Below, piece after piece: positions 5,423 through 34,010 of a stretch of DNA of 64,000 nt; position 1 is the stretch's first letter, and the number at the start of each line of letters is the position of its first letter. The position numbers and the translations under genes are program-made. Source of the DNA: Streptomyces sp. NBC_01454. GTDB taxonomy: Bacteria > Actinomycetota > Actinomycetes > Streptomycetales > Streptomycetaceae. The DNA is taken from the NCBI RefSeq assembly GCF_036227565.1, contig NZ_CP109460.1:3720001-3784000 (forward strand), given 5' to 3'. The notes under the pieces were generated by a model. That model was not told where the DNA came from, ran no database searches, and saw only the letters and a program-made list of their open reading frames with translations.

Positions 5423-5445
5423 AACGTTATGAGGGGGACCCGGAC

Positions 5446-5679
5446 ATGACCGGCGCCATCGTCGCCATCGCCATCGTCTTGATCGTCGTCGGAGGAATCA
5501 CGGCGGCGGTGGTCTCGCACTTCAGACTGCAACGCCACCGCGCCGACGCCGTCGCCATGGCCTCCTACCGCAAGCTCGCCGAGGAAGCGGTGGCCCGACA
5601 GGAGTCCTTGCAGGCCGAGTTGGCCGAGCTGAAGGCCCGGGTGGGGTCGATCGACGAGATGCTGCGGAGGATCGAGTGA
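5446..5679 (+). CDS. Small membrane protein with coiled coil
   Basis: A 77-residue protein with one N-terminal membrane helix (about residues 3-24, rich in Ile/Val/Ala), followed by a heptad-like charged helix (about 40-75) likely to form a coiled coil. It starts 23 bp after the regulator and its stop overlaps the GTG of the next gene, showing translational coupling. Small proteins of this shape often precede sensor-domain/ABC operons in Streptomyces. No function can be assigned; a scaffold or partner of the sensor protein is a guess. Confidence 0.75.
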   Translation: MTGAIVAIAIVLIVVGGITAAVVSHFRLQRHRADAVAMASYRKLAEEAVARQESLQAELAELKARVGSIDEMLRRIE

Positions 5680-13044: not shown

Positions 13045-13146
13045 TACGGTTCCCCCGTCGTCCCCGTAGTTACTTTGTATGGCGTCCACCCCACCGGGGC
13101 AGCCGACGGGGGGAATCACCTTCCGTACCGGCCGGAGCCGGCCGGA

Positions 13147-14115: not shown

Positions 14116-14334
14116 TCAGGCGCCGTGGCCGGCGGCGGGCTCGCGGAGGCTGCTGGGCCGCAGATCGGTCCAGTGCTCCTCCACATGGGCCAGGGCGGCT
14201 TCCCGGCTGCTCTCGCCCAAGGACACCGTCCATCCGTCCGGCACCTCGGCGAAGGCGGGCCACAGGCTGTGCTGGCCCTCGCCGTTGACGAGTACGAGGA
14301 ACGTGCCGTCCTGGTCGTCAAAGGGGTTCGTCAC
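14116..14334 (-). CDS. MbtH-like protein
   Basis: A 72-residue member of the MbtH family, small chaperone-like proteins that bind NRPS adenylation domains and help them fold and work. The N-terminal NPFDDQDG and the central [13 protein letters not shown] are the family signatures. The GTG at 14334 has a GGAGAG ribosome site. It is the first gene downstream of SARP box B and is coupled to the DrrA-like gene. It is the only MbtH gene in the window and probably serves both NRPS proteins. Confidence 0.95.
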
Positions 14335-14402
14335 GTCGCGCTCTCCAGATCTGAGGGGAAGGCCACAGCGGGCCTCGACGCGAAACATCGTGTCGAGGCC
14401 CG

Positions 14403-14438: not shown

Positions 14439-14690
14439 CTACGCGGGAGTGGCCGACTGACGGGACACCACGAAGCGCGCCACGTCGTTCACCGTGCGGA
14501 AGTTCTCGATGTCCAGGTCGGTGGGCTGCACCGCGACCCCGAAGGTCCGCTCGACCCACATCACCAGCTGCACGGCGAACAGCGAGCTGACGCTGCCGGT
14601 CGCGAAGATGTCGTGGTCGTCGGTGAGTTCGGTGTCCCGGACATGCTCGGAGATGAAGCCGCGGACGGTCTTGACGATGTCGTCTGTCAT
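14439..14690 (-). CDS. Free-standing carrier protein (acyl/aminoacyl)
   Basis: An 83-residue carrier protein. The phosphopantetheine serine is probably residue 36 in GSVSSLF, replacing the usual DSL. The helix-2 region [17 protein letters not shown] is typical. Its ATG overlaps the stop of the hydroxyacyl dehydrogenase gene. It is last in the long NRPS operon. Being coupled to an amino acid:carrier-protein ligase and two dehydrogenases, it probably holds serine while this is oxidised to aminomalonyl, as proposed for zwittermicin A. That assignment is inference from gene order. Confidence 0.88.
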
Positions 14691-15586
14691 CAGGCACCTG
14701 CCTTGTTCCCGGCGATGGCCGGCTCGTACGAATAGAAGCCGTGGCCGCTCTTGCGGCCGAGTCGGCCGGCGGCGACCAGCTTGCGCAGGAGCGGCGCCGG
14801 GGCGAACTTGGAGTCGTTGAAGTTGTCCAGGAGGACCTCCAACGAGTACATGACGGTGTCCAGGCCGATCAGGTCTGCCGTCTCCAGCGGGCCCATCTGG
14901 TGGCCCAGGCACTGCCGGAAGAGCCGGTCGATGTCGCCGGCCTGCGCGACGTTGTCCTGCAGCAGGAGGATCGCCTCGTTGACGCTGAGCATCGCGACGC
15001 GGTTGGTGACGAAGCCCGAGGAGTCCTCGACCACCACGATGTCCTGGCCGATCGTCCAGAACAGCCCGCGGGTCAGCTCGATCGTCTCCGGCGAGGTGTG
15101 AAACCCCCGGATCACCTCGACGAGCTTCTTCAGCGGCACCGGGTTCATCAGATGGGTCCCGACCACCCGGTCCTGGCGTGTGGTCACCGAGGCCATCTTG
15201 GTGATCGGGATGGCCGAGGTGTTCACGCCGAAGACACAGTGCTCCGGGGCGACAGCGTCCATCTCCCGGTAGAGCTTCTCCTTGATGTCCCAGTTCTCGG
15301 TGACGTTCTCGACGACGAAGTCGGCGTCCGCGAGCCCCTCGAGGCCGGTGCGGAACTCGATGCGGGCGAGCACCTCGTCGGGGGTGTCGGCGGCGAGCTT
15401 GCGGTCGAGCATCCCGTACAGCCGGGCGTTCTCCCCGATCAGCTCGCGGGCCCGGTCCAGGGCCTCGTCGGTGGTGTCCACGAGCACCACCGACAGCCCG
15501 GCCGCCGCGAAGGCATGGGCACCGCCGATGCCCATCGTGCCGGCACCGAGTACTCCCACGCGCCGGATCTGGCTGGTCTCAGTCAT
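14690..15586 (-). CDS. 3-hydroxyacyl-CoA dehydrogenase family enzyme
   Basis: A 298-residue NAD-dependent dehydrogenase. The N-terminal Rossmann domain has [12 protein letters not shown], then the conserved NTSAIPIT and [10 protein letters not shown] segments. The C-terminal domain ends with [12 protein letters not shown], typical of 3-hydroxybutyryl-CoA dehydrogenases. In aminomalonyl- and hydroxymalonyl-ACP pathways such an enzyme oxidises the side-chain alcohol of a carrier-bound substrate to the aldehyde. Both ends overlap neighbours: its stop overlaps the carrier-protein ATG, and its ATG overlaps the ligase stop. Confidence 0.92.
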
Positions 15587-16821
15587 CACATTCCCTCGGG
15601 CGGTTGTGGTGTGCGGGGTGGTGTGGTCCGGCACCGCTCGGCGAGCGGCGCCGGCCAGTCGTCGACGTCCCATCCGTACTGGCACAGCAGGGCGTAGGTG
15701 AGCCGCTCCAGGCCGAACCCGACGCAGGCGGAGTGGACCGTGCCGCCGTCGGGGCCCTTGATGCCGAAGGCGTCACCGAAGTGCTTTTCGTGCAGGTTGA
15801 ACGAGCCGACCGAGATGCTGTCCCCGGGGCCCACGTCCAGGTGGAGTTCGTGCTTGAGCTCCAGCAGCCGCTGCGAGGAGACCTGCGCGGCGGTCGCCGC
15901 CCCGGCGAAGAACGGGTCGCTCGCCACCTCGCACCGGCCGGCCAGATCGAGCCGTTCGACCAGTTCGACGGCGCGTCGGCGGAACCGGTCGCGGGCCTCG
16001 CGGACGAACTCCGCCGTGCCGAGGAAGACCGTCTCGCGGATGGTGAAGTCCGCGAGCCGCTCCAGCGTGCGGTGGTAGCGGGACTCGTGCCGAAAAGAGC
16101 CGCCCTTGGCGGTGACCACGGTGTTCTCGTCCGGCAGGGTGGCGCCGGCGAACTGGTCGAAGGTGTGGTAGCACATCGTGGGCGGCAGGACCCGGTCCAC
16201 CGGCGCGCAGCGGTGCAGCACCCGGTCCCCGATGGTCTCCCGCGCCCCGACCTCCTCGGCGAAGGCACGGTAGGTGTCGACGTCCCCGTCGAGCCGGGCG
16301 GCGAACATCATGTGCTGCGGGAACGAGGAGAGGTAGCCGCTGCGGTGCAGCGCGGTGACCGGCAACAGCGTCGGGTAGCGGTACTCCCGCGCGCCGAACT
16401 CCGCGCGGATGATGTCGTGCAGCAGTCCGTCCAGCGCGTCCAGCGCCGCCAGGGCCGGGGCGCCGAGCGCCACCTGCCCCGGGCCGATCTCGTGCACCAC
16501 GCCGTCGGCCAGCAGCCCGGCGAACGTGTCGGGGCGCGGGACGCGGTCGGAGGGCGAACGCCACAGCACCTTGGGGGGCGTGCGCAGTTGGGGACGTACC
16601 TCGGTGTCGACGACGTGCCGGAGCTTCTTGCCCAGCGCCTCGGCGTCGACGGGGTGCTCGGTGGTCACCACGACGGCGCCGACCTCGTCCCCGCCGGGGC
16701 CCTCGGCGGCGACCAGCCGGAAGCCGGTGATGGCCTCGGAGATGTAGTAGACCCGTCGGTTCAGCTCATCGAGGTGTGCCCCCGAGACCGGTTCGTCGAG
16801 GTCGAGTTGGTAGGAGTGCAT
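15586..16821 (-). CDS. Seryl-tRNA-synthetase-like amino acid:[carrier protein] ligase
   Basis: A 411-residue protein with the class II aminoacyl-tRNA synthetase catalytic core but no long coiled-coil tRNA-binding arm, as in the amino acid:carrier-protein ligases related to atypical seryl-tRNA synthetases. It keeps possible zinc ligands Cys217 (PTMCYHTF), Glu263 (IRETVFLG) and Cys366 (SACVGFG), and motif 3-like GFGLERL. The enzyme would activate a small amino acid with ATP and load it onto a free carrier protein. Its neighbours (two dehydrogenases, a carrier protein) suggest serine for aminomalonyl-ACP. Glycine or another small amino acid is possible. Confidence 0.85.
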   Translation of the reverse strand: MHSYQLDLDEPVSGAHLDELNRRVYYISEAITGFRLVAAEGPGGDEVGAVVVTTEHPVDAEALGKKLRHVVDTEVRPQLRTPPKVLWRSPSDRVPRPDTFAGLLADGVVHEIGPGQVALGAPALAALDALDGLLHDIIRAEFGAREYRYPTLLPVTALHRSGYLSSFPQHMMFAARLDGDVDTYRAFAEEVGARETIGDRVLHRCAPVDRVLPPTMCYHTFDQFAGATLPDENTVVTAKGGSFRHESRYHRTLERLADFTIRETVFLGTAEFVREARDRFRRRAVELVERLDLAGRCEVASDPFFAGAATAAQVSSQRLLELKHELHLDVGPGDSISVGSFNLHEKHFGDAFGIKGPDGGTVHSACVGFGLERLTYALLCQYGWDVDDWPAPLAERCRTTPPRTPQPPEGM

Positions 16822-16839
16822 GTCGGCTGCCTCTCGTCC

Positions 16840-17997
16840 TTACGCCGCGGTGGGCAGGCCCAGCAGGCCGGCGATGATGGACCGCTGGATGTCCGAGGTG
16901 CCGCCGTAGATCGTGCCGGCCAGCACGTCGCGCACCTCGCGCTCGATGCCGAGCTCCTCGGTGTAGCCCCGGGCGCCGTGGATCTGCATGGCGTCCAGGG
17001 CGGTGGTCTTCAGGCTCTCGCTGACGTAGAGCTTGAGCATCGAGGCCTCGTGCATCGCGAGCCGGCCCTGGGAGCGCAGCCAGCCGACCTTGTAGAGCAT
17101 CAGCCGGGACAGCTCCAGCCGGACCCGCATGTCGGCGATCTTGTTCGAGACGGACTGGAACGAGCCGATGGCGCGGCCGAACTGGCGGCGGCTCGCGGCG
17201 TGCGAGACGCAGCGGTCCAGCAGCCGGCTCATCACCCCGACCTGGCTGGCGAACATGAAGCCGCGTTCCCACTCCATGGTGGCGGTGAACAGCTGGTACC
17301 CGGCGCCCTCGGCGCCCAGCCGCTGGTCCTCGCCGACCACGCAGCCCTCGAAGGCGATCTCGCCCATCAGGGTGCCGCGCAGGCCCGCCTTGGGGATGTC
17401 CCGGGCGGTGAGTCCGGGGGTGTCCGCCGGCACGACGAAGGCGGTGACGGCGCGCTGCGGGGCACCGTCCGTGGCGGTGCGGGCGAAGACGATGAACAGG
17501 TCGGCGCGCGGCCCGTTGCTGATGAACTTCTTCGTCCCGTTCAGCACGTAGGTGTCGCCGTCGCGCTCGGCGGTGGTGGTGAGCGAGAGCATGTCGGAGC
17601 CGGCCTCCGGCTCCGAGAGGGCGTGTGCGCCGACCAGCGAACCGTCGCACAGCGAGGGCAACCAGCGCCGGCGCTGCTCCTCGGTGCCGTGGTCGGCGAG
17701 GTAGACGGCGCAGGCGAAGAGGTGGTTGTTGATCGCGAAGACCAGGCCGTTGTCCACGCAGCCCTCGCCGAGCGCCTCGTAGGCCATGATCGCGGTCAGC
17801 GGATCCAGCCCGCCGCCGCCGTACTCCTTCCTGATCGGCCAGCCCAGGACGCCGAAGTCGGCGCAGGCCTGCCAGCCGGCCTCGTCAAAGGTGGCGTTGC
17901 GGTCGTGTTCGGCCGCCCTGGCGCCGAGGTTCTCCCGGGCGAACCGGACGACCTTGTCGCGCAGCGCCTGCTGTTCCGGCGTGGGTGCAAAGTCCAT
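16840..17997 (-). CDS. Acyl-CoA dehydrogenase family flavoenzyme
   Basis: A 385-residue FAD enzyme of the acyl-CoA dehydrogenase superfamily: N-terminal helices (about 1-115), the middle strand domain with ALSEPEAGSD, and the C-terminal helices with RRQFGRAIGSFQSV and QIHGARGYTEE. The usual Tyr-Glu-Gly-Thr catalytic segment reads YGGTSDIQR. The base may therefore sit on the earlier helix (MEWERG), as in isovaleryl-CoA dehydrogenase, or the enzyme may do different chemistry. Homologues in aminomalonyl/hydroxymalonyl pathways oxidise a carrier-bound aldehyde or alcohol. It lies 18 bp before the ligase gene in the same operon. Confidence 0.92.
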   Translation of the reverse strand: MDFAPTPEQQALRDKVVRFARENLGARAAEHDRNATFDEAGWQACADFGVLGWPIRKEYGGGGLDPLTAIMAYEALGEGCVDNGLVFAINNHLFACAVYLADHGTEEQRRRWLPSLCDGSLVGAHALSEPEAGSDMLSLTTTAERDGDTYVLNGTKKFISNGPRADLFIVFARTATDGAPQRAVTAFVVPADTPGLTARDIPKAGLRGTLMGEIAFEGCVVGEDQRLGAEGAGYQLFTATMEWERGFMFASQVGVMSRLLDRCVSHAASRRQFGRAIGSFQSVSNKIADMRVRLELSRLMLYKVGWLRSQGRLAMHEASMLKLYVSESLKTTALDAMQIHGARGYTEELGIEREVRDVLAGTIYGGTSDIQRSIIAGLLGLPTAA

Positions 17998-18049: not shown

Positions 18050-19021
18050 TCAGACCTCCCACAGGGTCACCGCCCAGGCGGCCACCGGGCTGTTGTTGAG
18101 CACCAGCACCAGGTCGCCCTGCTGCAGTCCGCCGCCGGTCAGCAGGGCGTCGAGGTTCAGCACCACGTCCATGGCGCCCAAGTGCCCGTATTCGGCGAGG
18201 TTTTCGCCGCAGACCGGGTGAATGGTCAGGCCGAGCAGGGTGGCGTAGAAGTCGTAGGCGGCGGCGGTGACGTTCTGCATCAGCGTGGTCTTGACCCGGT
18301 CGCGGCTCACTCCGGCGTCCGCGAGGACCTGCTCCACCAGCGCGCCGAGCTTGCGGGAGCTGAGGGTGGCCAGTCCGAAGCGGTAGCGCGAAGGGTCCTG
18401 GCACACCTCACGCCACTCGTACCAGGGAGCGTCCTTGTAGTCGACGCGGAAGAGGTCGTGGAAGCTGCCGTCGGTCTCCTGGCGGTGCGCCCGCAGTACC
18501 GGCCGGCCGCCGCGGACCAGGGTCATCGCGTAGGCGGCGTCGCCGATGACGGTGACCGGGAAGCGGATCCGGTCCACCCCGGTGGGGCGGCTGGCGTGCG
18601 CGATCACGATCTGCTCACGGGCCGGGTCGGCACGCAGCAGGTCCCGGGCCAGGGCCCACGCCGCGCTGGACCCGGTGCAGCCCAGGCCGTCGACGGTGAA
18701 GGCGAACGCGGAGGTCAGTTTGGCTTCGCTCTGCACCCGGCAGACGTCCGAGCCGAGCAGCACGTCCGGCGCGCGGGGGCCCACCAGCAGCAGGGCGTCC
18801 GGTTCGCCGGGGTGTGCGGCGTACAGCTCCTGGCAGGCCCGGGCGGCGAGCGGCGCCTGCTCGGTCTCGTCGAAAACGCTGACGGTCCGTACGCCGCTGC
18901 CGCGCGCGAACGCGGCGGTGTCGGCGTCCAGCATCCCGAATTCGGGGAGCTCCTCGACCGGCACCTTGGTGTCGGACAGCAGGCAGTGGATGGCACCGAT
19001 GCCGATGGTGTCGACACTCAT
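18050..19021 (-). CDS. KAS III-like (FabH-family) condensing enzyme or acyltransferase
   Basis: A 323-residue thiolase-fold protein. The nucleophile is Cys115 in GLGCTGSS. The other two FabH catalytic residues are not where expected: the HQAN segment reads MQNVT, and the Asn of GNTS is replaced in YGHLGAMD, which puts a His there. It is therefore probably not an ordinary decarboxylating ketosynthase. Relatives with changed triads act as acyltransferases or as dedicated condensing enzymes. Its ATG overlaps the P450 stop, and its neighbours suggest it moves or condenses the carrier-bound amino unit. Substrates are unknown. Confidence 0.82.
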   Translation of the reverse strand: MSVDTIGIGAIHCLLSDTKVPVEELPEFGMLDADTAAFARGSGVRTVSVFDETEQAPLAARACQELYAAHPGEPDALLLVGPRAPDVLLGSDVCRVQSEAKLTSAFAFTVDGLGCTGSSAAWALARDLLRADPAREQIVIAHASRPTGVDRIRFPVTVIGDAAYAMTLVRGGRPVLRAHRQETDGSFHDLFRVDYKDAPWYEWREVCQDPSRYRFGLATLSSRKLGALVEQVLADAGVSRDRVKTTLMQNVTAAAYDFYATLLGLTIHPVCGENLAEYGHLGAMDVVLNLDALLTGGGLQQGDLVLVLNNSPVAAWAVTLWEV

Positions 19022-20268
19022 GCGACGCTCCCCTCCACAGCCGGCTCGGCGGTGAGCGCGACCCGCAGTCCGCTGTAGCCGTTGACGAAGTTCGAGAAGA
19101 GCCGCTTGGGCGGGCCGGCCAGGTGGATGTCCGCGACCTGGGTACGCAGCGCGTCGAGCATGGCGTTCACATGGACGCGGCCGAGGAAGGCGCCGAGGCA
19201 GAAGTGCGGGCCGTGTCCGAAGGCGACGTGCTTGTTGGACGTGCGGGCCAGGTCGAAGACGTGCGGGTCGGTGAAGACGGTCTCGTCGAAGTTCGCCGAG
19301 CTGTTCCACAGGCTGACCACGTCACCGGCCTTGATGGTCACGTCCCGCAGCGGGACGTCCACCAGCGCCCGGCGCCCGAAGTGCATGGCGGGGGTGGTCC
19401 AGCGCAGCACCTCCTCGGTGGCGCTGTCCACGTCGACCGCGCCGGACTTCAACGCCCGCCACTGGTCGGGGTGTTCGGACAGGGCGATCAGTCCGCCGAC
19501 GGAGGACATCCGGCTGGACTCGTCGCCGCCCAGGATCAGGCTGTAGCAGTTGAAGACGATCTCGTCCTCGCTGAGCAGCTCGCCGTCGAGGGTGGCGGTG
19601 GCCAGCGCGCTGATCACGTCGTCGCCGGGGTGGCGCCGGCGGCGGGCGGCGAGGTCGGAGAAGTAGAGGAGGATCTCGTTGCGCGCCATCCACTCCTCCA
19701 TCTCGCTGTCGTCGGCGCTGTGCCGGGAGAGCGTCTGGGTGTTCCAGGCGACGAGCTGCTCGCGGTCCCCCTGCGGGACGTCCATGAGGTCGCCGATGGT
19801 GTTGATGGGGATGTGGTCGGCCACATCGGTGACGAAGTCCAGTTCGCCGTGGGCGAGGGCCCCGGCGACCAGCGCCCGGGTCCGCTCGTGCACACCGGCC
19901 ACCACCGGCTCCAGCACCCGGGGTGAGAAGGACTTGAGCATCAGGTTGCGGATCTCGCGGTGCCGGGCGCCGTCGGTGACGGCGAGCATCTTGCGCGAGG
20001 CGGAGTCCTCCCCCTGCAGCAGGGTCGCCAGGACGTTGCCGCGCTCGGAGGTGAACTGCTTGTTGTCGCGGTAGAGGGTGACCACGTCCTCGTAGGTGGA
20101 GATCACCCAGAACCCGGGGCCACGATCGGTGGCCCGGTGCCAGAAGACGGGGTGCTCGGCCCGGAACCTGCGCCACATGTCCGCGAGGTCCACGTCGAGG
20201 AACGTCTGCGGATCGGTGAGGTCCACCGTGGCCAGGTCGTCCGCGGTCGACCGTAGTTGGGGCTTCAT
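19018..20268 (-). CDS. Cytochrome P450
   Basis: A 416-residue soluble bacterial P450. The heme-ligand loop is FGHGPHFCLG, the ExxR motif is in EEVLRW, and the I-helix oxygen-activation segment is LGGDESSR, with Ser in place of the more common Thr. The ATG at 20268 has a GGAGGAAG ribosome site and follows the permease by 26 bp. The I-helix resembles P450s that hydroxylate carrier-bound amino acids, which would fit beta-hydroxylation of an NRPS-bound residue, but a PKS-chain oxidation is equally possible. Confidence 0.93.
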   Translation of the reverse strand: MKPQLRSTADDLATVDLTDPQTFLDVDLADMWRRFRAEHPVFWHRATDRGPGFWVISTYEDVVTLYRDNKQFTSERGNVLATLLQGEDSASRKMLAVTDGARHREIRNLMLKSFSPRVLEPVVAGVHERTRALVAGALAHGELDFVTDVADHIPINTIGDLMDVPQGDREQLVAWNTQTLSRHSADDSEMEEWMARNEILLYFSDLAARRRRHPGDDVISALATATLDGELLSEDEIVFNCYSLILGGDESSRMSSVGGLIALSEHPDQWRALKSGAVDVDSATEEVLRWTTPAMHFGRRALVDVPLRDVTIKAGDVVSLWNSSANFDETVFTDPHVFDLARTSNKHVAFGHGPHFCLGAFLGRVHVNAMLDALRTQVADIHLAGPPKRLFSNFVNGYSGLRVALTAEPAVEGSVA

Positions 20269-20294: not shown

Positions 20295-21113
20295 TCAGGC
20301 GCCTGCGGTGCGGTATCGGCGGAGACTCACCAGGGAGCAGAGGGCGAGGAGCAGGCCCAGTGACACCCCGGCCACCACCCACGGGTGGTCGGCTGGGAAG
20401 GTGCCGCCGGCCGTCGCGGGGTTACCCCACAACCGGCGGCAGCAGGCGATCACGGCGCTGACCGGGTTCCACTCCGCGACCGGCCGGATCAGCGACGGGA
20501 TGTTCTGCGGGGCCAGGAACGCGTTCGACAGGAAGGGCAGCACGATCACCACGAACGGCGTGATCACGCTGATCGTCTCCACGTTGCGCAGGGTCAACGC
20601 GAACAGCACGCCCAGCCAGAGCATGGCGTAGACGAACACCGCGATCAGCGCGAAGCCCGCCAGGACCCGCAGCGGCCCGGAGTTCGGGCGCCAGCCGAGC
20701 AGCAGCCCGGCGCCGGTGACGACGGTCAGCCCCAGCAGCCCGACCAGGAGGTCGGCCAGGGTGTGCCCGAAGAGCACCGCGGACCGGCTGATCGGCAGCG
20801 ACCGGAACCGGTCGGTCATCCCGCCCTGGAGGTCCAGCGCCACGGAGACCGCGGTCGGCCCCACACAGGCCAGGGCGACCTGGACCGCGCCGCCGGCGAA
20901 CACGTACTCCCCGTACGAGCCGCCGGCCGGCAGGCTGATGGAGTCGCGGAACAGGTAGCCGAGCATGACCATGCTGACCAGCGGGCTGAGCGCGACGCCC
21001 AGCACCCGGGCGGGCGCCCGCCGCAGGTGCCGCAGCCGGCGCCCGGTCACCGCGGCGACCTCCGTGAGGAGCGCCGCCGCGGGAGCGGGCCGGGGTGCCA
21101 CCGCCGTCGTCAT
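20295..21113 (-). CDS. ABC-2 type transporter permease (DrrB-like)
   Basis: A 272-residue membrane protein with six helices (about 45-65, 80-100, 125-150, 155-180, 190-210, 245-265). It matches the ABC-2 permease family, with the GGMTDRFRSLPISR cytoplasmic loop typical of DrrB-like drug exporters. The ATG overlaps the NRPS stop (ATGA). The expected ATPase partner is the DrrA-type protein encoded at 13147-14088. Together they would export the product and give self-resistance. Confidence 0.92.
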   Translation of the reverse strand: MTTAVAPRPAPAAALLTEVAAVTGRRLRHLRRAPARVLGVALSPLVSMVMLGYLFRDSISLPAGGSYGEYVFAGGAVQVALACVGPTAVSVALDLQGGMTDRFRSLPISRSAVLFGHTLADLLVGLLGLTVVTGAGLLLGWRPNSGPLRVLAGFALIAVFVYAMLWLGVLFALTLRNVETISVITPFVVIVLPFLSNAFLAPQNIPSLIRPVAEWNPVSAVIACCRRLWGNPATAGGTFPADHPWVVAGVSLGLLLALCSLVSLRRYRTAGA

Positions 21114-24100
21114 GACCGCCCGCCTTCGTGCTCGGCGTGCCAGCGGTCCAGTTCGGCGGTGACGGCCGGGCCGATCTCGTTCAGCGGCCCGCGGCTCATC
21201 ATCTCGTCGTGGGTGCAGGCGACGTGGTGGACGTCCATCGGCCCGTCGAAGACCGGCTTCCACAGCCCGACCTTGTGCGTCCGCTCGCCGTCGGAGAGCG
21301 GCGACTCGGAGACGAAGAGCTGCATCCTGCCGTCATAACGACCGGGCGCGTACAGCGACTTGAGCGTCTGGTGGTGGGCCATCAGGTCGACCATCCGGGC
21401 CATCCGGCGCTCCCCCATCTCCGCCAACGGGCTGTGGTCGCGGCGCAGGGTCTCGAAGATGTCCTGGACGCTCAGGTCCCGGTCGCCGAACTCGGCGCGG
21501 TCGTGGCCGATGCCCTCCAGCAGCCAGGCGAAGAGCGACTGTTCCTCGCGGTCGTCGGGCACCCCGGTGCGCGGATAGGCGTCCAGGACGGACAGCACCC
21601 CGACCTCCTCGCCGGCGGCCCGCAGCTGCACCGCCATCTCGTAGGCGATGGTGCCGCCGAACGACCAGCCGAGCAGGTGGTACGGGCCCTCCGGCCGCAC
21701 CTTCTTGATCATCTGCAGGTAGTCGGCGGCGGCCTCCTCGACGGAGGCGGGCAGCGGCGCGTAGTCCACCACGCAGGGGGCCTGGATGCCGTAGATCGGG
21801 TGCTCGGCACCGAGGTGCCGGGCGAGCGGCAGGTAGGGCAGGCTGAACCCGACACCGCCGTGGATGCAGAACACCGGGGGGCGGCTGCCGGTCGGCCTGA
21901 TGCACAGCATCGCGCTGAACGGGTCGGACAGCTCCAGCTCCGCGGAGGCGCCGAGCGCCCCGGCCATCACCTCCGCACCGCTGTGCGGCTCCGGCGTCCC
22001 GGCCGTACCCGCGGTCGCCGCGGTGGTCGCGGGTGCGGAGGCGAGCGGCCCGGGGCGGCAGACCTCGGCGAGGGCGGCCACGTTCTGGTGTACGAAGACA
22101 TCGGCGACGGTGATCTCCAAACCGGCGTTCCGCGCCCCGCTGACCAGCCTCAGCGACTTCATGCTGTCCATGCCGACGTCGAAGAAGTTTTGCTCGACGC
22201 CGAACCGGGGCAGGCCCAGCACCTCGGCGACCACGCCGTGCAGCGCCGCCTCGGTCCCGTCGCGCGGCGCGGTCCCGGGCGCCTCCTTCGCCGCCTCCGG
22301 CGCGGGCAGCGCGGCGCGGTCCACCCGGCCATCGGCGGTCAGTGGGAGGGCGTCGAGCGCCACGAAGGCGGACGGCACCAGGTAGGCGGCGAGCGACGTG
22401 GCGGCGGACCGGGCGAGTGCGGCGGTGTCCACCGTGGCTCCCTCGCCGGGCACCACATAGGCCACCAGCCGGACGTCGCCCCGGCGGTCCTCGCGGGCCA
22501 CGACCACCGCCCGCTCCACGGCGGCCTCCCGCGACAGCACGGACTCGATCTCGCCGAGACCGACCCGGTAGCCGCGGATGCGCACCTGGTCGTCCGACCG
22601 GCCCACGTACCGCAGGCTGCCGTTCGCATCCCACTTCACCAGGTCACCGGTACGGAACATCCGGGACCCGGCCGGGCCGTAGGGGCAGGCGACGAACCGT
22701 TCGGCGGTGGGCGCCGGGCTGCCGGCGTAGCCGCGGGCCAGGCCCGCACCGGCGAGGTAGAGCTCACCGGTCACACCGGGTCCGACCGGCCCCAGCCAGG
22801 GGTTGAGCACATACGCCCGGACGTTTGCGATCGGCCGGCCCAGCGGCAGGGTGCCGGTGCCGGTCTCCTGGCCGGGCTCCACGGCCCCGGCGACGGCGCC
22901 CACCGTGGCCTCTGTCGGGCCGAACTCGGTCAGCACCCGCACCTGGGGGTGGGCCTTGCGCCACTCGTCCAGCTGGTCGGCCGCCACCGGCTCGTCGGCG
23001 AGGACCAGTTCACCGGTCGGCGAGCAGCCGTCGGGCAGCACGTCGAGCACCGCCAGGTGGCTCGGGGTGCCCTTGAAGAACGCGGCGCCCGCCCCGGCCA
23101 CGGCGTCACCCTCGGCCAGTTCGCCGAGGCGCACCGTGCCGCCCGTGGTCAGCGGCAGGAACAGCCCGGTTATCGAGACGTCGAAGGACAGCGAGGTGGT
23201 CAGCAGCGCGTCGCCGGACGCGGAGCGGTAGGTCTCCCGGGCCCAGGCGAGGTAGTTGACCACCGCCCGGTGCTCGACGACCGTGCCCCGGGGGCGGCCG
23301 CCCGCGCCGGCGGTGTAGATCACATAGGCCGGGTGCGCGGGGAGCAGCGGGTGCCGCCGGTCCGCCGCGGTCAGCGGATCCGCCGACGTCCCGGTCACCG
23401 CGGGCCCGTCGAGCGCCACCGGCGGTGTCCCGGCGGCGAGCATCCGGCGGACCAGACCGGCGGTGGTGACCACCCGCAGCGGCGCGGCCTCGGCGAACAT
23501 CCGCTTGACCCGCTCGACGGGCTCGTCGGTCTCGACCGGCAGGTAGGCCGCGCCGGACTTGAGCACACCGAGCACGGCGACGACCGCCTCGGGGGACCGG
23601 GGCAGGGCGACCGCCACGGTCGTCTCCGGGCCGGCGCCGGCTTCGATCAGGTGGCGGGCCAGCCGGTTCGACCGGGCGTCGAGCTCCGCGTAGCTGAGGG
23701 ACCCGGACTCGGCGTGGACCGCGGTGGCGTCCGGGGTGCGGGCCGCCTGGGCGGCGAACAGCTCCGGCAGGGTGGCCTCCGGCACCTCACGGGCGGTGGC
23801 GTTCCAGGCGCCGAGCACCCGCTCCCGTTCCTCCTCGCCCAGGACGTCCACCCGGCTCAGCCGGATGTCCGGGTCGGCGGCCACCGCCGCCAGCAGCCGG
23901 GTGAAGCCCGCCACGACGCGCTCGGCGGCGGCCCGGGTGAACAGGTCGGTGCTGTAGCCGAGCAGACCCCGCATGGAGCCGTCCTCGGGCCACTCCAGCA
24001 GCTGCAGGGACAGGTCGACCTTGATCCGGCCGGACGGGACGAACTCGGGGCGCACCGTCAGACCGGGCAGCACCAGCGGCGCGTCCTCGTTGTTCTGCAG

Positions 24101-27100
24101 CGTCAGCATGACCTGGAACAGCGGGTGCCGGGCCAGCGAGCGGGCCGGGTTGAGGGCGTCGACGATCTGCTCGAACGGCACGTCTTGGTGCGAGTAGGCG
24201 GCCAGGTCGGTCTCCCGGACCCGGGCCAGCAGCTCGGTGAACGTCGGGTCGCCCGCGGTGTCGGTGCGCAGCACCAGGGAGTTGACGAAGAAGCCGACCA
24301 GGTCACCCAGGGCGTCGTCGGTCCGGCCGGCCACCGAGGTGCCCAGCGGGACGTCGGTGCCCGCGCCGAGCCGGGTGAGCAGGGCCGCGAACGCGGCCTG
24401 CAGCACCATGAATTCGGTGACGCCGGCCCGGCGGGCGATCGCCACCAGCGTGGCGTAGAGCCCGGCGTCCAGCCCGAACATCAACTCACCGCCCGCGTTG
24501 CCGCTCACCGCCGGCCGCGGGAAGTCGGTCGGCAGGGCCAGCTCCTCGGGCAGCCGGGCCAGCGTTTCCTTCCAGTACGCCAGCTGCCGGGAGACGTGGC
24601 TGGTGGCATCGTCCGGGGAGCCGAGCAGCTCCCGCTCCCAGACCGCGTAGTCCGCGTACTGCACCGGGAGCGGTGCCCACTCGGGCGCCCGGCCGGCGCA
24701 GCGCGCCCGGTAGGCGGCAGACAGGTCGCCCAGCAGCGGCGCCATCGACCAGCCGTCGAAGGCGATGTGGTGGAGGACCAGCAGCAGGACGTGTTCGTCC
24801 TTGCCGAGGGTGAACAGCCGTACCCGCAGCGGCGGTTCGACGGTCAGGTCGAAGCCGAGGTCGTACTCGGCGGCGAGGGCGGCGGCCAGGCCGTCCGCCG
24901 GCAGCGACCGGACCTTCAGCGCCGGGCCGCCGGCGGCTGCGTCCAGCACCCGCAGCGCGGGCCGGCCGTCGTGCTCCGGGATCACGGTGCGCAGCACCTG
25001 GTGCCGGCCCGCGACGTCGCGCAGTGCCTCCCGCAGGGCGTCGGCATGCAGCCGCCCGGTGAGCCGGAAGGTCATCGGCGAGTTGTAGGTGCCGGTGGCC
25101 CTGCCCTCGCGGCGGTTGAGGAACCACAGCCGCTGCTGGGCGAAGGACAGCGGCCGGCCGCGGTCACCGTCCTGGACGCGGGCCGGTACCAGCGCCGGGC
25201 GGGCGGCGTCGGCGGAGTCCAGCTGACCGGCCAGGGCGGCCACGGTCCGCGCCTCGAACAGGGCGCGGATCGGCAGCTCGACGCCCAGTGCCGCGCGGGC
25301 CCGGCTGACCAGCCGGGTAGCCAGCAGCGAGTGGCCGCCGAGGTCGAAGAAGTCGTCGTCGATGGTGACCCGGTCCAGGCCGAGCACATCGGCGAACAGG
25401 CCGCAGAGGATCGCCTCCGCCGGGTTGCGCGGCTCCCGGCCCCGCGGCGCGGTGTGCAGCTCCGGCGCGGGCAGCGCCTTGCGGTCCAGCTTGCCCTGCG
25501 GCGTGAGCGGCATGTCGGGGAGCGCCACCACGGCGGCGGGGACCATGTAGTCGGGCAGCGCCCCGGCGAGCTGCTCGCGCAGCCCGTCGGCGACCGCTTC
25601 CTTGTCCGTGAGGACCACGTACGCCACCAGCCGGCGGTCGCCGCCCGCTTCCTCGCGCACGTCCACCACGGCCTGGGCGACGCCCTCCTGGGCGAGCAGG
25701 GCCGAGGAGATCTCGCCGAGCTCGATGCGGAAGCCGCGTAGCTGGACCTGGTCGTCGGCGCGGCCGACGTAGTCGAGTTCGCCGTCCTCCAGCCACCGCA
25801 CCAGGTCGCCGGTGCGGTACATCCGCTCGCCCGGTGCGCCGTACGGGTCGGCCACGAACCGCTGGGCGGTCAGCCCGGTGCGGTCCAGGTAGCCGCGGGC
25901 GAGGCCGCCCGCCACATACAGCTCCCCGGTCACGCCCACCGCGGCCGGCGCCAGGTCACGGTCGAGGACGTAGACGCGGTGCGCGGAGGTGGGGCGGCCG
26001 ATCGGCGGCCGGCCGGAGCCGGCCAGCGGGCCGCTGACCGTCGAGCTGACCACGGCCTCGGTCGGGCCGTAGCCGTTGTACAGCCGCACGTGGGAGGCCC
26101 AGCGCTCGACGGTCTCGGCGGGCACGGCCTCACCGGCGACCGCCAGGCGCAGGTCGGCCGGGAGCGTGCTGCCCTCGGGGAGGCCGTTGACGACCACCGG
26201 CGGCAGGCCGGCCAGGTTGACCCGGGCGTGGTGGATCAGGTCGACCAGCGGCCGGCCCGGGGTGCGGCACTCCTCGTCGGCGATCACCAGCGTGCCGCCG
26301 TTGAGCAGCGCCAGCATGATCTCCCAGACCGACGCGTCGAAGCTGAACGAGGCGAACTGCAGCACCCGGGTCTCGCTGTCCAGGCCGAACCGCTCCACCA
26401 GGCTCGCGACCATCGCCAGCATGCCGGTGTGCTCCACGACGACGCCCTTGGGGCGCCCGGTGGATCCGGAGGTGTAGATGACGTAGGCGGGGTGGCGGGC
26501 GTCCAGCGGGGCGCGGCGCTCGGCGTCGGTGACATCGTCGCCGGAGCACTGCGCCAGTTCCGCGACGGTGCCGGCGGCGTCCACCGCCACCGCGTCCCTC
26601 CCGTCGGGCAGCCGGCCCAGGATCTCCTCAGTGGTCAGCAGGGCCACCGGACGGGCGTCGTCCAGCATGTACGCGATCCGGTCCGCGGGGTACGCGGAGT
26701 CGACCGGGAGGTAGGCGGCGCCGGCCTTGAGGACCGCGAGCGCGGCCACCACCATCGTGGCCGACCGCGGCAGGGCCACCGCGACCACGTCCTCGGGGCC
26801 GACCCCGCGGTCGATCAGCAGCCGGGCGAGCCGGTTGGCGCGGGCATTGAGGTCCCGGTAGGCCAACTCCTCACCGCCGTCCCCGTACACCACGGCGGTG
26901 GCGTCGGGGGTCCGGGCGGCGTGCTCCTCGAAGACCTCGGTGGCGGGACGCGAGGCGGCCGGCGCGGTGCTGCCGGCCCAGGCGCCGAGCAGCTGTCGGC
27001 GCTCGTCGTCGCCCAGCGCGTCGACCGAGCCCAGCCGTGCGCCGGGGGCGGCGACCAGGGCCCGCAGGACATGGACGAACCGCTGGACGACCGTCTCGAC

Positions 27101-30100
27101 CTGCGGGGCGTCGAACACGTCGGAGCGGTACTGCGCCTCCAGGCGCATCCGCTCGCCGGGGAACACCCCGAGCGCCAGCGGGTATTCGGCGATCACCCGG
27201 GCCTGCCACGCCAGCATGGACAGGCCGGGGATGCGCTCGCCGATGCCGTCGAGCACACCGGTGGGGTAGTTGTGGAAGCTCACCACGGTGTCGAAGAGTT
27301 CGCCGAGGCCGGCGCCCTGCTGCACCTCGGCCAGCCCCAGGTGCTGGTGCGGTTCCAGCGCGAGCCGGCGCGCCTGCAGGTCGACCAGCATCTCTTCCAG
27401 GGTGGTCTGCGGGGTGAGGGTCACCCGCACCGGCAGCGTGTGCATGAACGAGCCGACCATCTGCTCCACGCCCGCCAGCTCGGCGGGGCGCCCGGAGACG
27501 ACTGCGCCGAAGGTGACGTCGCCGCGGCCGGTCAGCCGGCCGAGGGCCACCGCCCAGGCGCCCTGGGCCACCGTGTTCATGGTCAGGCCGCGGGCGTGGG
27601 CCCACGAGGTCAGCGCGGCCGTCAGCTCCTCGGGCAGTTCGACGGTCCAGGTCTCCGGCAGCGTCTCGACGCGGGCGCGGTCGGCGGGGCCGAGCCGGGT
27701 GGGCTCGGCCACCCCGGCCAGTTCCTGCCGCCAGGCCGTCCGTGCGGCCTCCTTGTCCTGCTCCCCGGACCACTGCAGGTATCCGCGGACGGAGGCGACC
27801 GGCGGCAGCGCGGAGGCGTCCGCGCCGTTGGACCACAGGACGACCAGCTCGTGCGCCAGCACGGCCGACAGGGACCAGCCGTCGACGAGGATGTGGTGCG
27901 CGGTCCACACCACCCGGTAGCGGTCCGGGCCCAGCTCGTACACCGTGAAACGGGTCAGCGGCGGCTCGGCCACGTCGAAGCGGCGCAGCCACTCCTGGTC
28001 GGTCAGCCGGACGGCCTCGGCCTCCCGCTCGTCCTCCGCGAGCCCGGTCAGGTCGACCTCGGACCAGGGCAGTTCGACGGATCCGGGGATCAGCTGGACG
28101 GGGTCGCCGGCGTCACGGTCGCGGAAGCAGGCCCGCAGGGCGTCGTTGCGCTCCAGCAGCGCGGCCACCGCGCGGCGCAGGGCGGCCTTGTCCAGCGGCC
28201 CGGCGATGTCCATGAGGACCTGCAGGGTGTAGGCGTCCATCCCGTGCCGGTCGAACTCGGCCTGGAACAGCAGGCCGCGCTGCAGCGGGGACAGCGGCAG
28301 GATGTCCGTCAGCCCCTCGACCTCGCGCTCGTAGTCCTCGATCTCGCTCTGGGCCACGGTGACCAGCGGGAATTCGGACGGGGTCCGGCCGCCGGCACCG
28401 GGCTTCCGCGCGTGCTCGGCGAGCTGCTCCAGGGCGCGGAACCAGCCCTCGGCGATCTCCCGGACGTCGTCCTCCGCCAGCAGCCCGCCGGCGTACGTCC
28501 AGGTGGCCGCGAGCACCGGCCCTCCGGGGCGGTCCTCGGTGACGGAGACGACCTCGACCGGGTAACGCAGCGGGGTGTCCGGGTGTGCGGTCTGGCCGGA
28601 GGCGCCGGCCGCCATCTGCCAGGCCTCCCCGGTGCCGACGGTGAACCGGCCCAGGTAGTTGAAGCCGATCTGCGGAACGGCGTGCCGCGCGAGCACCCGG
28701 GCGGCCTGCGGGTTCAGGTGCCGCAGCAGGCCGTAGCCGATGCCGTGGCCGGGGACGGCGCGCAACTGCTCCTTGATGCGCTTGAGCGCGGTGCCGAAGC
28801 CGGGCCCGGCGTCCCGCAGCTCGTTGCGGTCGAGGTCGCCGAGGTCGCCGAGGTCGCCGAGGTCCAAGGCGACCGGGAAGACGCTGGTGAACCATCCGAC
28901 GGTGCGGGAGAGGTCGAGCTCGCCGGCGACCGGCTCACGGCCGTGCCCCTCCAGCTCGATCACGGTCCGGGCGGCGGGCGCCCCGCGCCCGCGCCGCCAG
29001 TCGGCGACCGCCAGTGCCAGGCCGGTCAGCAGGACCTCGTTCACCTCGGCGTGGAAGACCGCCGGGACGGTGGTGAGCAGCGCGGCGGTCCGCTCGGGCG
29101 ACAGCTCGATCCGCACCTCGCCGGCGGTGGCGCAGGTGTCCCGGGACGGGTCCAGCAGGCGCGCGCCGAGCGCCGGGGCGTCGCCGGCCACCTGCGCGGT
29201 CCAGTGGGCCAGTTCGCCGACCCGCTGCGCGGTGCGGGCCTGTTCCGAGAGCGCCTTGGCCCAGCCGCGGTAGGACGTGGCGACCGGGTCGAGCCGCACC
29301 GTGCGGCCGGCGGCCACGTCGCTCCAGGCGGCCTGCAGGTCGGGCAGCAGGATGCGCCAGGACACCCCGTCCACGGCCAGGTGGTGGACGACCAGCAGCA
29401 GCCGGCCGGGCCGGTCGGGGCCCGCGTCGAGGAGGACCGCCTGCAGCATCAGCCCGCCCTCGGGGCTCAGCCGGCCGCGGGCGGCGGCCAGCTGTGCGGG
29501 CAGCGGGTCGTCGTCGGCCCCGGAGACGTCCACCCGGCTGACGGCGTCCGCGGCGCGCACCGCACCGGCGGGCAGCACCTCCAGGGACCACAGTCCGGGA
29601 GCCGGGGCCACCAGCCGCATCCGCAGGGTGTCGTGGGCATCCATCAGCGCCTGCAGGGCCGTGGTGAGCCGCTCGGGGTCGGTCCCGGCGGGCACGGCGA
29701 CGGTGACGTACTGGGCGAACTCGCGGGTGGGGTCGGGCAGTTCGCCGAGATCCTCGCGCAGCTGGTCGACGATCGGGGTCAGCTCGATCTCGCCGACGCC
29801 GTCCTGTGCGGCCACCGGCGTCCGCGCCTCGACCGGCTGGGCGGCCGCCGCGATCGCCGCCGGGGTGCGGTGCAGGAACACGTCACGGGAGGTGATGACC
29901 AGACCGGCCCTGCGGGCCCGGCTGACCACCTGGATGGAGCTGATGCTGTCGCCGCCCAGGGCGAAGAAGCTGTCGTCCCGGCCGACCGACGGCAGTCCGA
30001 GCACCTCGGCCAGCACCCGCCCGATGGTCTCCTCCGCCGGGCCGCGCAGGGCCTCGGGGACCGAGGAGGCGGCCGAGGACGGGGCCGGGGCCGGGGCCGC

Positions 30101-32980
30101 GAAGTCGGGGGTGGGCAGGGCCTTGCGGTCGACCTTGCCGTGCGCGGTCAGCGGCAGCCGGTCCAGGGGCACCAGGGCCGCCGGGACCATGTAGCCGGGC
30201 AGCACGCGGGCCAGTCCGTCGCGGACCGCCACGGTGTCGGGGCCGTCGTGCTCGGGCACGAAGTAGCCGAGCAGCCGCTTGTGTCCGGCCTGGTCATCGC
30301 CCGCGATCACCACCGCGTCCGAGACGCCCGGCAGGGCCCGCAGCGCGGTCTCGATCTCGCCCAGCTCGATCCGGTGGCCGCGGATCTTGACCTGGTGGTC
30401 GCGGCGCTCGATGAAGTCCAGCTGCCCGTCGGCGCGCAGCACCACCCGGTCGCCGGTCCGGTACATCCGCGCCCCGCCGCCCACGAACGGATCGGGCACG
30501 AAGGTGGTGGCGGTGCGGCGCGGGTCGGCGAGGTAGCCGCGGCCCACCCCGGCGCCACCGATGAAGAGTTCACCGGGCACGCCCTGCGGCACCGGCCGCA
30601 GTTCGTCGCCCAGGACGTACAGCAGGGTGTTGCGCAGCGGTCGGCCGATCGGGACGAACACCCCGTCCAGGACGTCGCCGTGGCGGACGTAGGCGTGCGT
30701 CACGTCGTCCGAGCACTCGGTGGGCCCGTACATGTTGACCAACGGGATCGCCGGGTAGCCGGCGAACCAGCGGTCGCACAGCTCGGGGGCGAGCGCCTCA
30801 CCGTTGGAGATCATCCAGCGCAGACCGGGCAACCGTGGGGCGTGGCCGGTGGTGTCCCAGGCGTCGAGGGTGGCGCGCAGCAGGGACGGGACCACCTCCA
30901 GCACGGTCAGGCTCTCGTCGCCGATGACGCCGAACAGGGCGTCCGGGTCGGCCGCGGTCTCCCGGCTCACCACCCGGACGCGCCCGCCGACCAGCAGGGT
31001 GGTCAGCGTCTGCCACACCGTGATGTCGAAGGTGACCGGGGCGTTGTGCACCAGGCTGTCCGCGCGGGTGAGGGAGAGCTCTTCGACCTTGGCCAGCAGG
31101 TGGTTGATCATCCCGCCGCGCTGCACCATCGCGCCCTTGGGCTTGCCCGTGGACCCGGAGGTGAAGATGACGTACGCCAGGTCCGCGGGCCCGCCGACGA
31201 CCGGGGCCACGGCGTCCGGTGCGTCCTCGGCGCCGTCCAGGACCAGCAGGTCGATCTCCCGTCCGGCCTCGCCGGCCAACCGCCCGGCCAGCTCCCGGTT
31301 GGCGGGGTCGGCCACCAGGCAGGTCGCGCCGCTGTCGGCCAGCAACGCGGTCAGCCGGGCGTGCGGCGAGCGCGCGTCGAGGGGCAGGAAGGCGCGTCCG
31401 GCGCCCAGCACGCCCAGCTCGGTGACGACGAAGTCCCGCCCGGGCTCGGCCAGTACGGCCACCAGACCGGTCCCGCCGAGCCGCCGGGAGAGCGCGCTGG
31501 CGCGGCCGGTGAGCTGGGCGTAGGTGAGGCTGCCGGTGTCGTCGGTCACCGCGACGGCGGTGGGCCGTTCGGCGGCCCGGGCGCGTACCCGCTCGACGAC
31601 GCCGAGGTAGGGCTCGCGCCGCTCCGGGCCGGTGAGCACCCGGGTGAGCCGCTCGTCCTCGCCGGGCGCCAGCAGCTCCAGTGCGCCCAGCCGGTCGTCG
31701 GCGCCGGCGGTCACGAAGCGGCCGAGGTAGCCGATGAACCGCGCCAGGTGCCCGCGGACCTCGTCGCGGTCGTAGCGGCTCTCGTTGGCGCTGAGGTCGA
31801 CGCCGACGCCGGCCGCGCCCTTGTCCGCGACGGTGAACTCCAGGTCGTCCACCAGCCCGGTCGACGGGCTGTACAGGACCGCCTCGCAGGGCCCGATGGC
31901 CAGCTTCTCGATCTGCGGCATCATGTTGAGGAACGGGCCGAACGGGCGCCGGTCGTCGCTGCCGAGCCGCATCTCGCGCCGCACCTTGCTGACCCGGTAG
32001 CGCTGGTGCTTGAGCGCCCCGGTGACCTCCTTGTGCGCGGCGGCCAGCAGCGCGCCCCGGGTCGTGCCGGGGCTGATCCGCATCCGCAGCGGCAGGTAGT
32101 TCACGACCATGCCGGGGATGTTCTGCATGGTGGCGCCGACCCGAGCGGTGACCGGCAGCGACAGCAGCACGTCCGTGGCGCCGGTCATCCGCTGGGTATA
32201 CGCGCCGAGCGCGGCGACCAGCACGGTCTGCCAGGTCACCCTGGCGTCCCAGGCCACCGCCCGCAGCCGCTCGGCGAGTTCCTCGGAAAGGACGGTCTCC
32301 TCGCGCAGGAACGACTGGGCCGGTTCGGCGTCCCGGCGGGCCAGGGTCACCAGCTCGGGGGCGTCGGTGAAGTGCTCCGCCCAGTACGCCTTGTCCCGCT
32401 CGTGGCGCGGGGAGCCGGCGTAGGCCGCCTCGGCCTCGATCAGCGTGGTCAGCGGCGCGAACCGGCCCTCGTCGAGGGAGGTGCCGGCCGTCATCGCCTC
32501 GTAGATCGCGGAGAGCCGCTGCCAGTAGATGACGTAGCTGAAGCCGTCGGAGACCAGGTGGTGGTTGAGGAGGCAGAAGAACGTGCGGTCCTCGGCGAGC
32601 GTGAACACACTCAGCCGGAACAGCGGCACCTCACCGCCCACCGTGAACGGCACCCGCAGATCGGCACGGATGGCCTCGCGGGCCGCCGCCACCGGGTCGG
32701 CGGCGGCGGAGACGTCGGTGACGGTCAGCGGCAGCCGGTCGAGTTCCTCGACGACCTGCCGGGGCTCCCCGTCCACCTCGAAGAAGCGGACCCGCAGGCA
32801 CTCCGACTCCTCGGCGAGCCGGGCCAGCGCGGCCGCGAACCGTTCCTGGTCCAGCGGACCCTTGATGTCCCAGTAGATCGCGGTGTTGTACGTGGCACCG
32901 CCGCCGGTGAGCTTTTCGTCGAACCAGATGTCGTTCTGGCCAGCGGTGAGCGGCAAGCCGGCCGTCGGCACACGCGTCAT
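21110..32980 (-). CDS. Trimodular NRPS, C-A-T-E-C-A-T-C-A-T-TE
   Basis: A 3956-residue peptide synthetase. Approximate order: C1 1-440 (HHLVSDG near 140; starter-type, so probably N-acylating), A1 465-960, T1 (GGDS near 1010), E 1060-1550 (HHLAVDG near 1198), C2 1555-1990 (HHILVDGWS near 1695, a D-L condensation type), A2 to 2480, T2 (GGHS near 2547), C3 (HHIAFDGWS near 2737), A3 to 3520, T3 (GMDS near 3602), TE with GWSFGG near 3768. By manual alignment the pocket residues are DIWEINMDD for A1 (acidic, suits a diamino acid), DAWGAAGVS for A2 (roomy, suits an aromatic such as chloro-Trp) and DVTKVAEVG for A3 (Asn/Asp-like). A3 has a degenerate P-loop and lacks the A10 lysine. The ATG at 32980 has a GAGGGG ribosome site. 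Confidence 0.95.
28801..28864 (-). repeat. In-gene 9-bp repeats in the epimerase domain
   Basis: The segment holds several head-to-tail copies of a 9-bp unit (gaggtcgcc on the plus strand). They encode a Gly-Asp-Leu triplet three times over, in a surface loop just after the [10 protein letters not shown] motif. It looks like a slippage expansion. Confidence 0.7.
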
Positions 32981-33192
32981 TGCAATCCCCTCGGAAAGGT
33001 TCATCAGGTCCGTGCCGCCGTAGCCGACGTCACCCCACGGGCGCGGTGCGGCGTCCGGAGGCACGGAGGGCGGCTGTGGTCCGGGCGGGTGGCATCCGTG
33101 CCACCCCGTCCCGAGCCACGCACGCGTACTGCCCCTCGCCGGCTGTCCGGGGCGGCAGGGGGCAGCGTCGTCTTCGATGGTGTCCGAGTGCG

Positions 33193-33946: not shown

Positions 33947-34010
33947 GCTGCTACCCCACATCCGATTTCTGGGTACGACGGGGCGGGCCGCGCGGGGGCC
34001 CGCGCCCGGT

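Follow-up and report, generated by a model that had tools for sequence, protein, structure and literature searches.

The 64,000-nucleotide stretch of Streptomyces sp. NBC_01454 analysed here (contig NZ_CP109460.1, positions 3,720,001 to 3,784,000; hereafter the window) contains, on its minus strand at 14439-17997, a cassette of four genes that encode an acyl-CoA dehydrogenase-type oxidase (ACAD), a class II aminoacyl-tRNA synthetase (aaRS)-like ligase (LIG), a 3-hydroxyacyl-CoA dehydrogenase homologue (HAD) and a free acyl carrier protein (ACP). The best reading of these sequences, to which we assign a probability of about 0.68, is that serine loaded by the ligase is converted into aminomalonyl-ACP. 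The cassette genes are as follows.

16840..17997, minus strand: ACAD, acyl-CoA-dehydrogenase-type oxidase of the prolyl/aminoacyl-carrier-protein dehydrogenase branch, 385 aa (Pfam PF00441/PF02770/PF02771)
15586..16821, minus strand: LIG, class II aaRS-like amino acid:carrier-protein ligase, 411 aa (NCBIfam, PDB, tree)
14690..15586, minus strand: HAD, 3-hydroxyacyl-CoA dehydrogenase homologue, 298 aa (Pfam PF02737/PF00725)
14439..14690, minus strand: ACP, free acyl/aminoacyl carrier protein, 83 aa (Pfam PF00550)

All four lie where a preliminary description of this DNA placed them, with families assigned by Pfam (ACP, HAD, ACAD) and by NCBIfam and PDB comparison (ligase), and third-position GC is 93-97% in each. 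That description also took the whole set to be translationally coupled; ATGA overlaps at LIG/HAD and HAD/ACP make this likely for the last three genes, but an 18-base gap separates ACAD from LIG, so coupling there is only possible. The phosphopantetheine Ser of the ACP sits in VSSL. Carrier proteins usually have D before this Ser, and in 45 of 53 aligned rows of ligase-cassette carrier proteins the residue is N or S.

In the proposed pathway LIG would activate an amino acid, most likely L-serine, as the adenylate and pass it to the phosphopantetheine of the free ACP. HAD enzymes act on 3-hydroxyl groups, and HAD and the prolyl-dehydrogenase-type ACAD would together oxidise C3 of seryl-ACP in two steps, via the aldehyde/enol, to give aminomalonyl-ACP. 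In most relatives with a closely similar ACAD (type A, defined below) an acyltransferase (AT) with a GYSxG motif would then pass the extender to a polyketide synthase (PKS); in the window's own branch a ketoacyl-ACP synthase III (KAS III)-like enzyme would replace the AT and either transfer the unit to another carrier protein or condense it. The sequences themselves show the genes, the families they belong to and how they co-occur, and a GYSxG AT was not found alongside a KAS III-like gene; the serine, the order of oxidation, the aminomalonyl product, the replacement of the AT and the role of the KAS III-like enzyme we infer from these comparisons.

The closest described system is zwittermicin A biosynthesis, in which, according to excerpts of PMC6395733, serine is loaded onto ZmaH en route to aminomalonyl-ACP. 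Excerpts of that paper and of PMC4207774 describe a pathway (ZmaJ, ZmaH, ZmaG, ZmaI and the AT ZmaF) that shares with the cassette a free carrier protein, a HAD and an ACAD, and the GYSxG AT of 19 of 27 window relatives resembles ZmaF (PMC4207774). The window differs in having a class II aaRS-like ligase in the place of an adenylation-enzyme loader, a KAS III-like gene with no AT found, and an ACAD of the prolyl-carrier-protein type.

Recurrence of the cassette and the GYSxG acyltransferase

A search with the LIG protein (7999 candidates scored) returned 312 relatives, the closest of which, among the best 120 matches listed, are from Streptomyces; at E <= 1e-60, 14 of 295 genomes in the genus and 4 of 394 in the class contain the ligase, the own genome being in both counts. 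We compared 83 ligase loci (79 from the best 80 of 140 genome-collection relatives, the own locus and three plasmid loci), which fall into 27 whose ACAD shares 55% identity or more with that of the window (type A), 26 with a more distant ACAD (type B), 4 with a weak ACAD match and 26 with none. HAD and ACP genes were found in 27 of 27 type A loci, and the association is therefore more than chance; the fetched stretches of the 26 type B loci hold HAD in 17 and ACP in 18. Trees of LIG and ACAD are quick trees, made without a completed careful maximum-likelihood search.

The ACAD might serve some other step of the cluster, such as dehydrogenation of a residue bound to a nonribosomal peptide synthetase (NRPS), leaving only LIG, HAD and ACP as a unit. 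In eight ligase loci, some of them represented by short stretches, HAD and ACP were found and the fetched sequence gave no ACAD match; elsewhere the neighbours of prolyl-type ACADs include an adenylation gene but no annotated HAD. In all 27 type A loci, however, 16-125 bases (measured between aligned parts) separate the ACAD from LIG, and we consider such a separate role highly improbable.

A GYSxG AT is present on the ligase's contig in 19 of the 27 type A loci, within the fetched stretch in 15 and beyond it in 4; L004, L009, L022 and L051 have one GYSxG each among 14 AT matches (E <= 1e-40, four genomes), 19-40 kb from the ligase. Among the 56 loci not of type A, 31 have an AT in the fetched stretch and none of these 31 reads GYSxG (Fisher P about 2e-11 over the 47 loci whose stretch contains an AT, largely one clade). 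Excerpts of PMC4207774 give GYSLG for ZmaF (aminomalonyl-ACP), GYSFG for ZmaA-AT (hydroxymalonyl-ACP) and GHSxG for CoA-using examples, and propose that the use of ACP-bound extenders is marked by hydrophobic residues at the RXR positions. At RXR position 1, all 19 GYSxG ATs have a non-basic residue (A, P or G), and R or K stands there in 44 of 82 GHSxG-type (His) ATs. A cassette accompanied by a GYSxG AT would fit the supply of an aminomalonyl-ACP extender.

Two plasmid loci (L081, L082) have the annotated order ketosynthase (KS) - hydrolase - HAD - ACP - ACAD - LIG - acyltransferase - condensation - ACP - AMP-binding, interrupted in L081 by an opposite-strand transporter gene, and the ATs of both read GYSxG. 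A plasmid search with HAD gave 328 records; regions were read in five of 30 listed, of which two are ligase cassettes and three are FkbH-type cassettes. The order in the latter, HAD-ACP-ACAD-loader, is the L081/L082 order with LIG last.

Other arrangements were also seen near ligases. In Paenibacillus/Brevibacillus (L019, L023, L025, L033, L034) the ligase is accompanied by a type B ACAD, the sequence fetched giving no match to HAD or ACP, and in L019 genes of a 2-oxoacid dehydrogenase complex then follow. Eleven loci (L010 at 5199-8096, L011, L014, L020, L021, L024, L029, L037, L056, L058, L063) have a ligase-near open reading frame containing a GHSxG AT with L at RXR position 1 and LPAH/LAAH; by Pfam scan that of L010 is a carrier protein-condensation-acyltransferase fusion, and an AT of this type apparently serves an NRPS module in place of an adenylation (A) domain.

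The loading enzyme and its substrate

Pfam has no credible match for the window ligase. Its nearest NCBIfam model is amino acid--[acyl-carrier-protein] ligase PRK07080 (NF005479; 167.9 bits, below the cut-off of 357), followed by archaeal-type serine--tRNA ligase (137 bits, cut-off 611), and its PDB matches are the Bll0957 structures 4h2w/3mey (125 bits), the type-2 seryl-tRNA synthetase (SerRS) 3w3s (87 bits) and SerRS 2cim (45 bits). LIG is not a member of the curated family NF005479, but it appears to work like an amino acid:carrier-protein ligase from outside that family; the nearest model and the best structural match both bear out the loading enzyme of the preliminary description, as does the Cys217/Glu263/Cys366 site named there. 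An alignment of 68 biosynthetic-type ligases shows C217 and E263 conserved in all 68 and C366 in 67, and LIG also has the class II motif 2 and 3 arginines (R244, R373). C217 aligns with a Cys of Methanosarcina barkeri SerRS chain 2cim (native C306) that we take to be a zinc ligand.

LIG shares with the Bll0957-type ligases (3mey/4h2w) the class II core, the Cys/Glu/Cys residues, the motif 2/3 arginines and a partner carrier protein. It differs from them in that the alignment begins only at LIG residue 89-90, in lying in its own clade with a small residue rather than Met/Leu before the SFN motif of the pocket, and in having HAD and ACAD partners. Ligases of this kind are known (Mocibob 2010, cited in excerpts of PMC9437257 and PMC2922099).

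Excerpts of the same two papers also hold precedents for tRNA-charging paralogues, which would make LIG a resistance enzyme (like albomycin-resistant SerRS2) or a supplier of Ser-tRNA (like VlmL), and the 87-bit likeness to type-2 SerRS would suit either role. The type-2 SerRS model TIGR00415, however, scores 104.8 bits against its cut-off of 489.55 and covers only model positions 211-506 of 518; SerRS alignments start at LIG residues 87-112, and a tRNA-binding Pfam domain was found at E <= 1 in none of 48 LIG relatives, although about 90 N-terminal LIG residues have no assigned domain. The same genome has a normal bacterial SerRS elsewhere (440 bits), and LIG is constantly paired with a free ACP. 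We give tRNA charging very little credence.

LIG could also load glycine or alanine in the manner of the classical ligases, with HAD and ACAD acting on another substrate. Its best solved-structure relative is the carrier-protein ligase Bll0957, which we take to prefer Gly. Excerpts of PMC9437257 tabulate Gly, Ala and Ser as substrates of such carrier-protein ligases. Against this, the pocket residue before SFN is small (G, A, C or S) in 68 of 68 biosynthetic-type ligases, as it is (G) in SerRS 3w3s, and is M or L in 8 of the 9 classical ligases L071-L079 and M in Bll0957. A starred branch of the quick tree sets the biosynthetic-type ligases apart from those nine, and HAD, which acts on 3-hydroxyls, is present in 27 of 27 type A loci. 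Loading of glycine or alanine appears quite improbable to us. The small pocket residue is suggestive of serine, and partner chemistry and this one position together make L-serine the most likely substrate.

The two dehydrogenases

The window HAD is of a kind found in ACP-bound extender cassettes, being 51.4-58.7% identical to the HADs of three FkbH-type hydroxy/methoxymalonyl-ACP cassettes (L155-L157). Like the window (HAD 51-59% identical), these have HAD, ACP, ACAD and loader in a row. Their 'HAD-IIIC family phosphatase' is presumably FkbH, which loads a glycerate-type unit. Unlike the window they have an FkbI-like ACAD, 32-35% identical to the window's and 49-58% identical to the ACAD of L041.

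The best PDB match of the window ACAD is the prolyl-ACP dehydrogenase 4irn (391 bits), and FkbI (1r2j) is absent from the 60 shown of its 120 PDB matches; it does not reach the curated RedW/PigA models NF045652 and NF053553 (372 of 650 and 406 of 500 bits). On the ACAD tree a branch with SH-aLRT 100 splits type A from type B. Type B ACADs group with the three ACADs of FkbH-type cassettes, and type A ACADs with five plasmid ACADs (L161-L165) that are 41-53% identical to the window's. In type A the base Glu is part of helix G (the second Glu of EWERG), and in type B it occupies the short-chain acyl-CoA dehydrogenase (SCAD) position; the window ACAD has the Glu of EWERG at the former and Gly at the latter (GGTSDIQ). 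We take these two columns to be the catalytic base positions of ACADs. We rejected an FkbI-like identity for the window ACAD, whose side of the tree and match to 4irn mark the prolyl/aminoacyl-carrier-protein dehydrogenase kind. The preliminary description had credited the cassette with the same two dehydrogenases as zwittermicin. One loader family has thus met two ACAD families, the ligase being joined to FkbI-like ACADs in a second type of cassette, and the statement is doubtful for the ACAD and needs correction there, ZmaI being, we assume, of the FkbI type.

The prolyl-carrier-protein dehydrogenases (PltE/RedW/PigA/4irn) and the five plasmid ACADs are like the window's in ACAD family and helix-G base Glu. 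Unlike the window, four of the five (L161, L162, L164, L165) have an adenylation-type gene nearby as loader, together with a carrier-protein gene; no loader is annotated beside L163, and the annotated features read around all five include no HAD. On the Streptomyces microflavus plasmid of L164 (118-4125) KAS III, ACP, A domain and ACAD genes stand in a row, an arrangement that may provide an acyl unit derived from an amino acid and a KAS III to go with it. The alignment of this KAS III is poor and does not show the Gln/His exchange described next.

A KAS III-like gene as a probable replacement of the acyltransferase

Upstream of the ACAD gene lies one further gene of interest.

18050..19021, minus strand: KAS III-like protein (Pfam PF08541), proposed transfer or condensing enzyme

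Such a gene is present in 7 of the 27 type A loci (the own locus, L001, L002, L003, L013, L054, L066), and in the one remaining type A locus with neither it nor a GYSxG AT (L065) the contig ends inside the ligase. Aligned with FabH, the window protein keeps Cys113, and the FabH His and Asn correspond in it to Gln247 and His278 (residues numbered from base 19015, the start being set two codons upstream, ATG of MSVDTIG); the Cys/Gln/His combination recurs in 7 of 7 KAS III-bearing loci. A GYSxG AT and a KAS III-like gene were never found together in the stretches and AT loci read. In the own genome GYSxG occurs in 0 of 30 AT loci read (of 41 AT matches), and neither the own ligase locus (L080) nor, by Pfam, any of the scanned window genes yielded an AT. 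The other KAS III genomes, that of L002 excluded, number five and gave 5 AT matches at E <= 1e-45, all GHSxG. Clusters in Amycolatopsis and Kitasatospora have KAS III, ACAD, LIG, HAD and ACP 44-82% identical to the window's, while its other genes match there at no more than 38% identity or not at all, the content being otherwise different.

On the quick LIG tree the seven KAS III loci form a single clade (SH-aLRT 99) amid GYSxG loci, which suggests that in the window's branch the AT was replaced by the KAS III-like gene. ChlB3, which is among the PDB matches, and CloN2 are KAS III-like enzymes known to act as transferases from one carrier protein to another, so either transfer or condensation could be the role of this enzyme. 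We tentatively suggest, at somewhat less than even odds, that a Cys-Gln-His KAS III-like enzyme replaced the aminomalonyl AT and uses aminomalonyl-ACP directly, either for a pyridoxal phosphate (PLP)-free decarboxylative condensation to an alpha-amino-beta-ketoacyl unit or for passage into an NRPS. If true, a KAS III route of this kind would lead into peptides and type II systems without the need for a modular PKS. Two of the KAS III-bearing genomes have, at another place, a second KAS III-like paralogue (L122, L123; 37-38% identical) with the same Cys/Gln/His.

Weighing of the aminomalonyl-ACP assignment

Several observations count against the assignment or parts of it. The enzymes nearest to the ACAD are named for prolyl thioesters, not FkbI, and no AT or modular PKS is among the window genes examined, so extender use there is unproven. 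Because SerRS 2cim has Gln before SFN and the distant ligases L067-L069, which have no cassette, carry Gly there, the small pocket residue is no proof of serine. The GYSxG loci are largely one clade on the LIG tree, so their count is not one of independent events; of the 19 GYSxG ATs, 12 have R or K at RXR position 3, which disagrees with the hydrophobic motif proposed in the excerpts of PMC4207774; and one FkbH-type cassette has an AT with GHSIG, so that an ACP-bound extender does not always require GYSxG. In the KAS III-like protein the His/Asn pair of the FabH Cys-His-Asn triad is missing, and the seven KAS III loci do not stay together on the ACAD tree (2 changes; 1 is compatible with the starred branches).

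The lack of an AT or modular PKS, the fact that the nearest assembly line is an NRPS and an ACAD of the prolyl-thioester type, which could form an enamine or enol, would all suit a different ACP-bound product: serine (or threonine) would be loaded and converted to formylglycyl-, 2-amino-3-oxobutyryl- or dehydroalanyl-ACP for the NRPS or the KAS III-like enzyme. The ZmaF-like GYSxG AT on the contig in 19 of 27 relatives points, however, to a malonyl-type unit, and the window LIG and ACAD lie among GYSxG loci on the trees. We judge such a product unlikely and favour aminomalonyl-ACP. The pathway with an aaRS-type loader that had been proposed for this cassette is partly supported, by the ligase family and the ATs of its relatives, and not by the kind of ACAD or the gene content of the window.

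Amino acid:carrier-protein ligases and aminomalonyl-ACP are each known already; a search of the open-access literature (subscription journals lying mostly outside its scope) found no paper that links a class II aaRS-like ligase with aminomalonyl-ACP. To our knowledge the natural role of these ligases is little defined, and if the proposed pathway is true one branch of them gains a clear job, the supply of aminomalonyl-type extenders, and polyketide engineering a compact, portable loading system. Ligase, HAD and ACP together with a GYSxG AT or a KAS III-like gene could serve as a genome-mining marker for aminomalonyl-bearing clusters, which a Pfam-based search can miss because Pfam gives the ligase no credible match.

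The surrounding gene cluster

Three neighbouring genes or gene products frame the cassette and the KAS III-like gene.

14116..14337, minus strand: MbtH-like protein, downstream of ACP (Pfam PF03621)
19018..20268, minus strand: cytochrome P450, beside the KAS III-like gene (Pfam PF00067)
21110..32986, minus strand: three-module NRPS with 4 condensation-type, 3 A, 3 peptidyl carrier protein and 1 thioesterase (TE) stretches (Pfam; domain order read by eye)

The genes scanned with Pfam between 14116 and 21109 gave no AMP-binding match, and the NRPS is a possible recipient of the ACP-bound unit. Streptomyces sp. cf386 has an 84% identical NRPS at the same place and shares the gene order from the TE gene at 1561 to a GHMP-type gene near 46700. 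The window cluster also includes a tryptophan-halogenase-family gene, a flavin reductase and transporters.

The region 33239-37095 encodes a DsbA-like protein, a FabG-like reductase, and a KS paired with a shorter KS-like protein. We considered these KS, chain-length-factor-like and ketoreductase genes as users of the unit and rejected them, the likeness of the KS to cispentacin AmcF being weak (193 of 325 bits) and with no link to an amino unit. An SbnA-like PLP enzyme fused to an ATP-grasp ligase is encoded at 42507-44774, and L005 and L009 have proteins 54-55% identical to it close to the cassette. Finally, the 319-aa product of 12160-13119 carries an ArsR-type helix-turn-helix at its C-terminus, and Pfam matches nothing in the N-terminal 220 or so residues.

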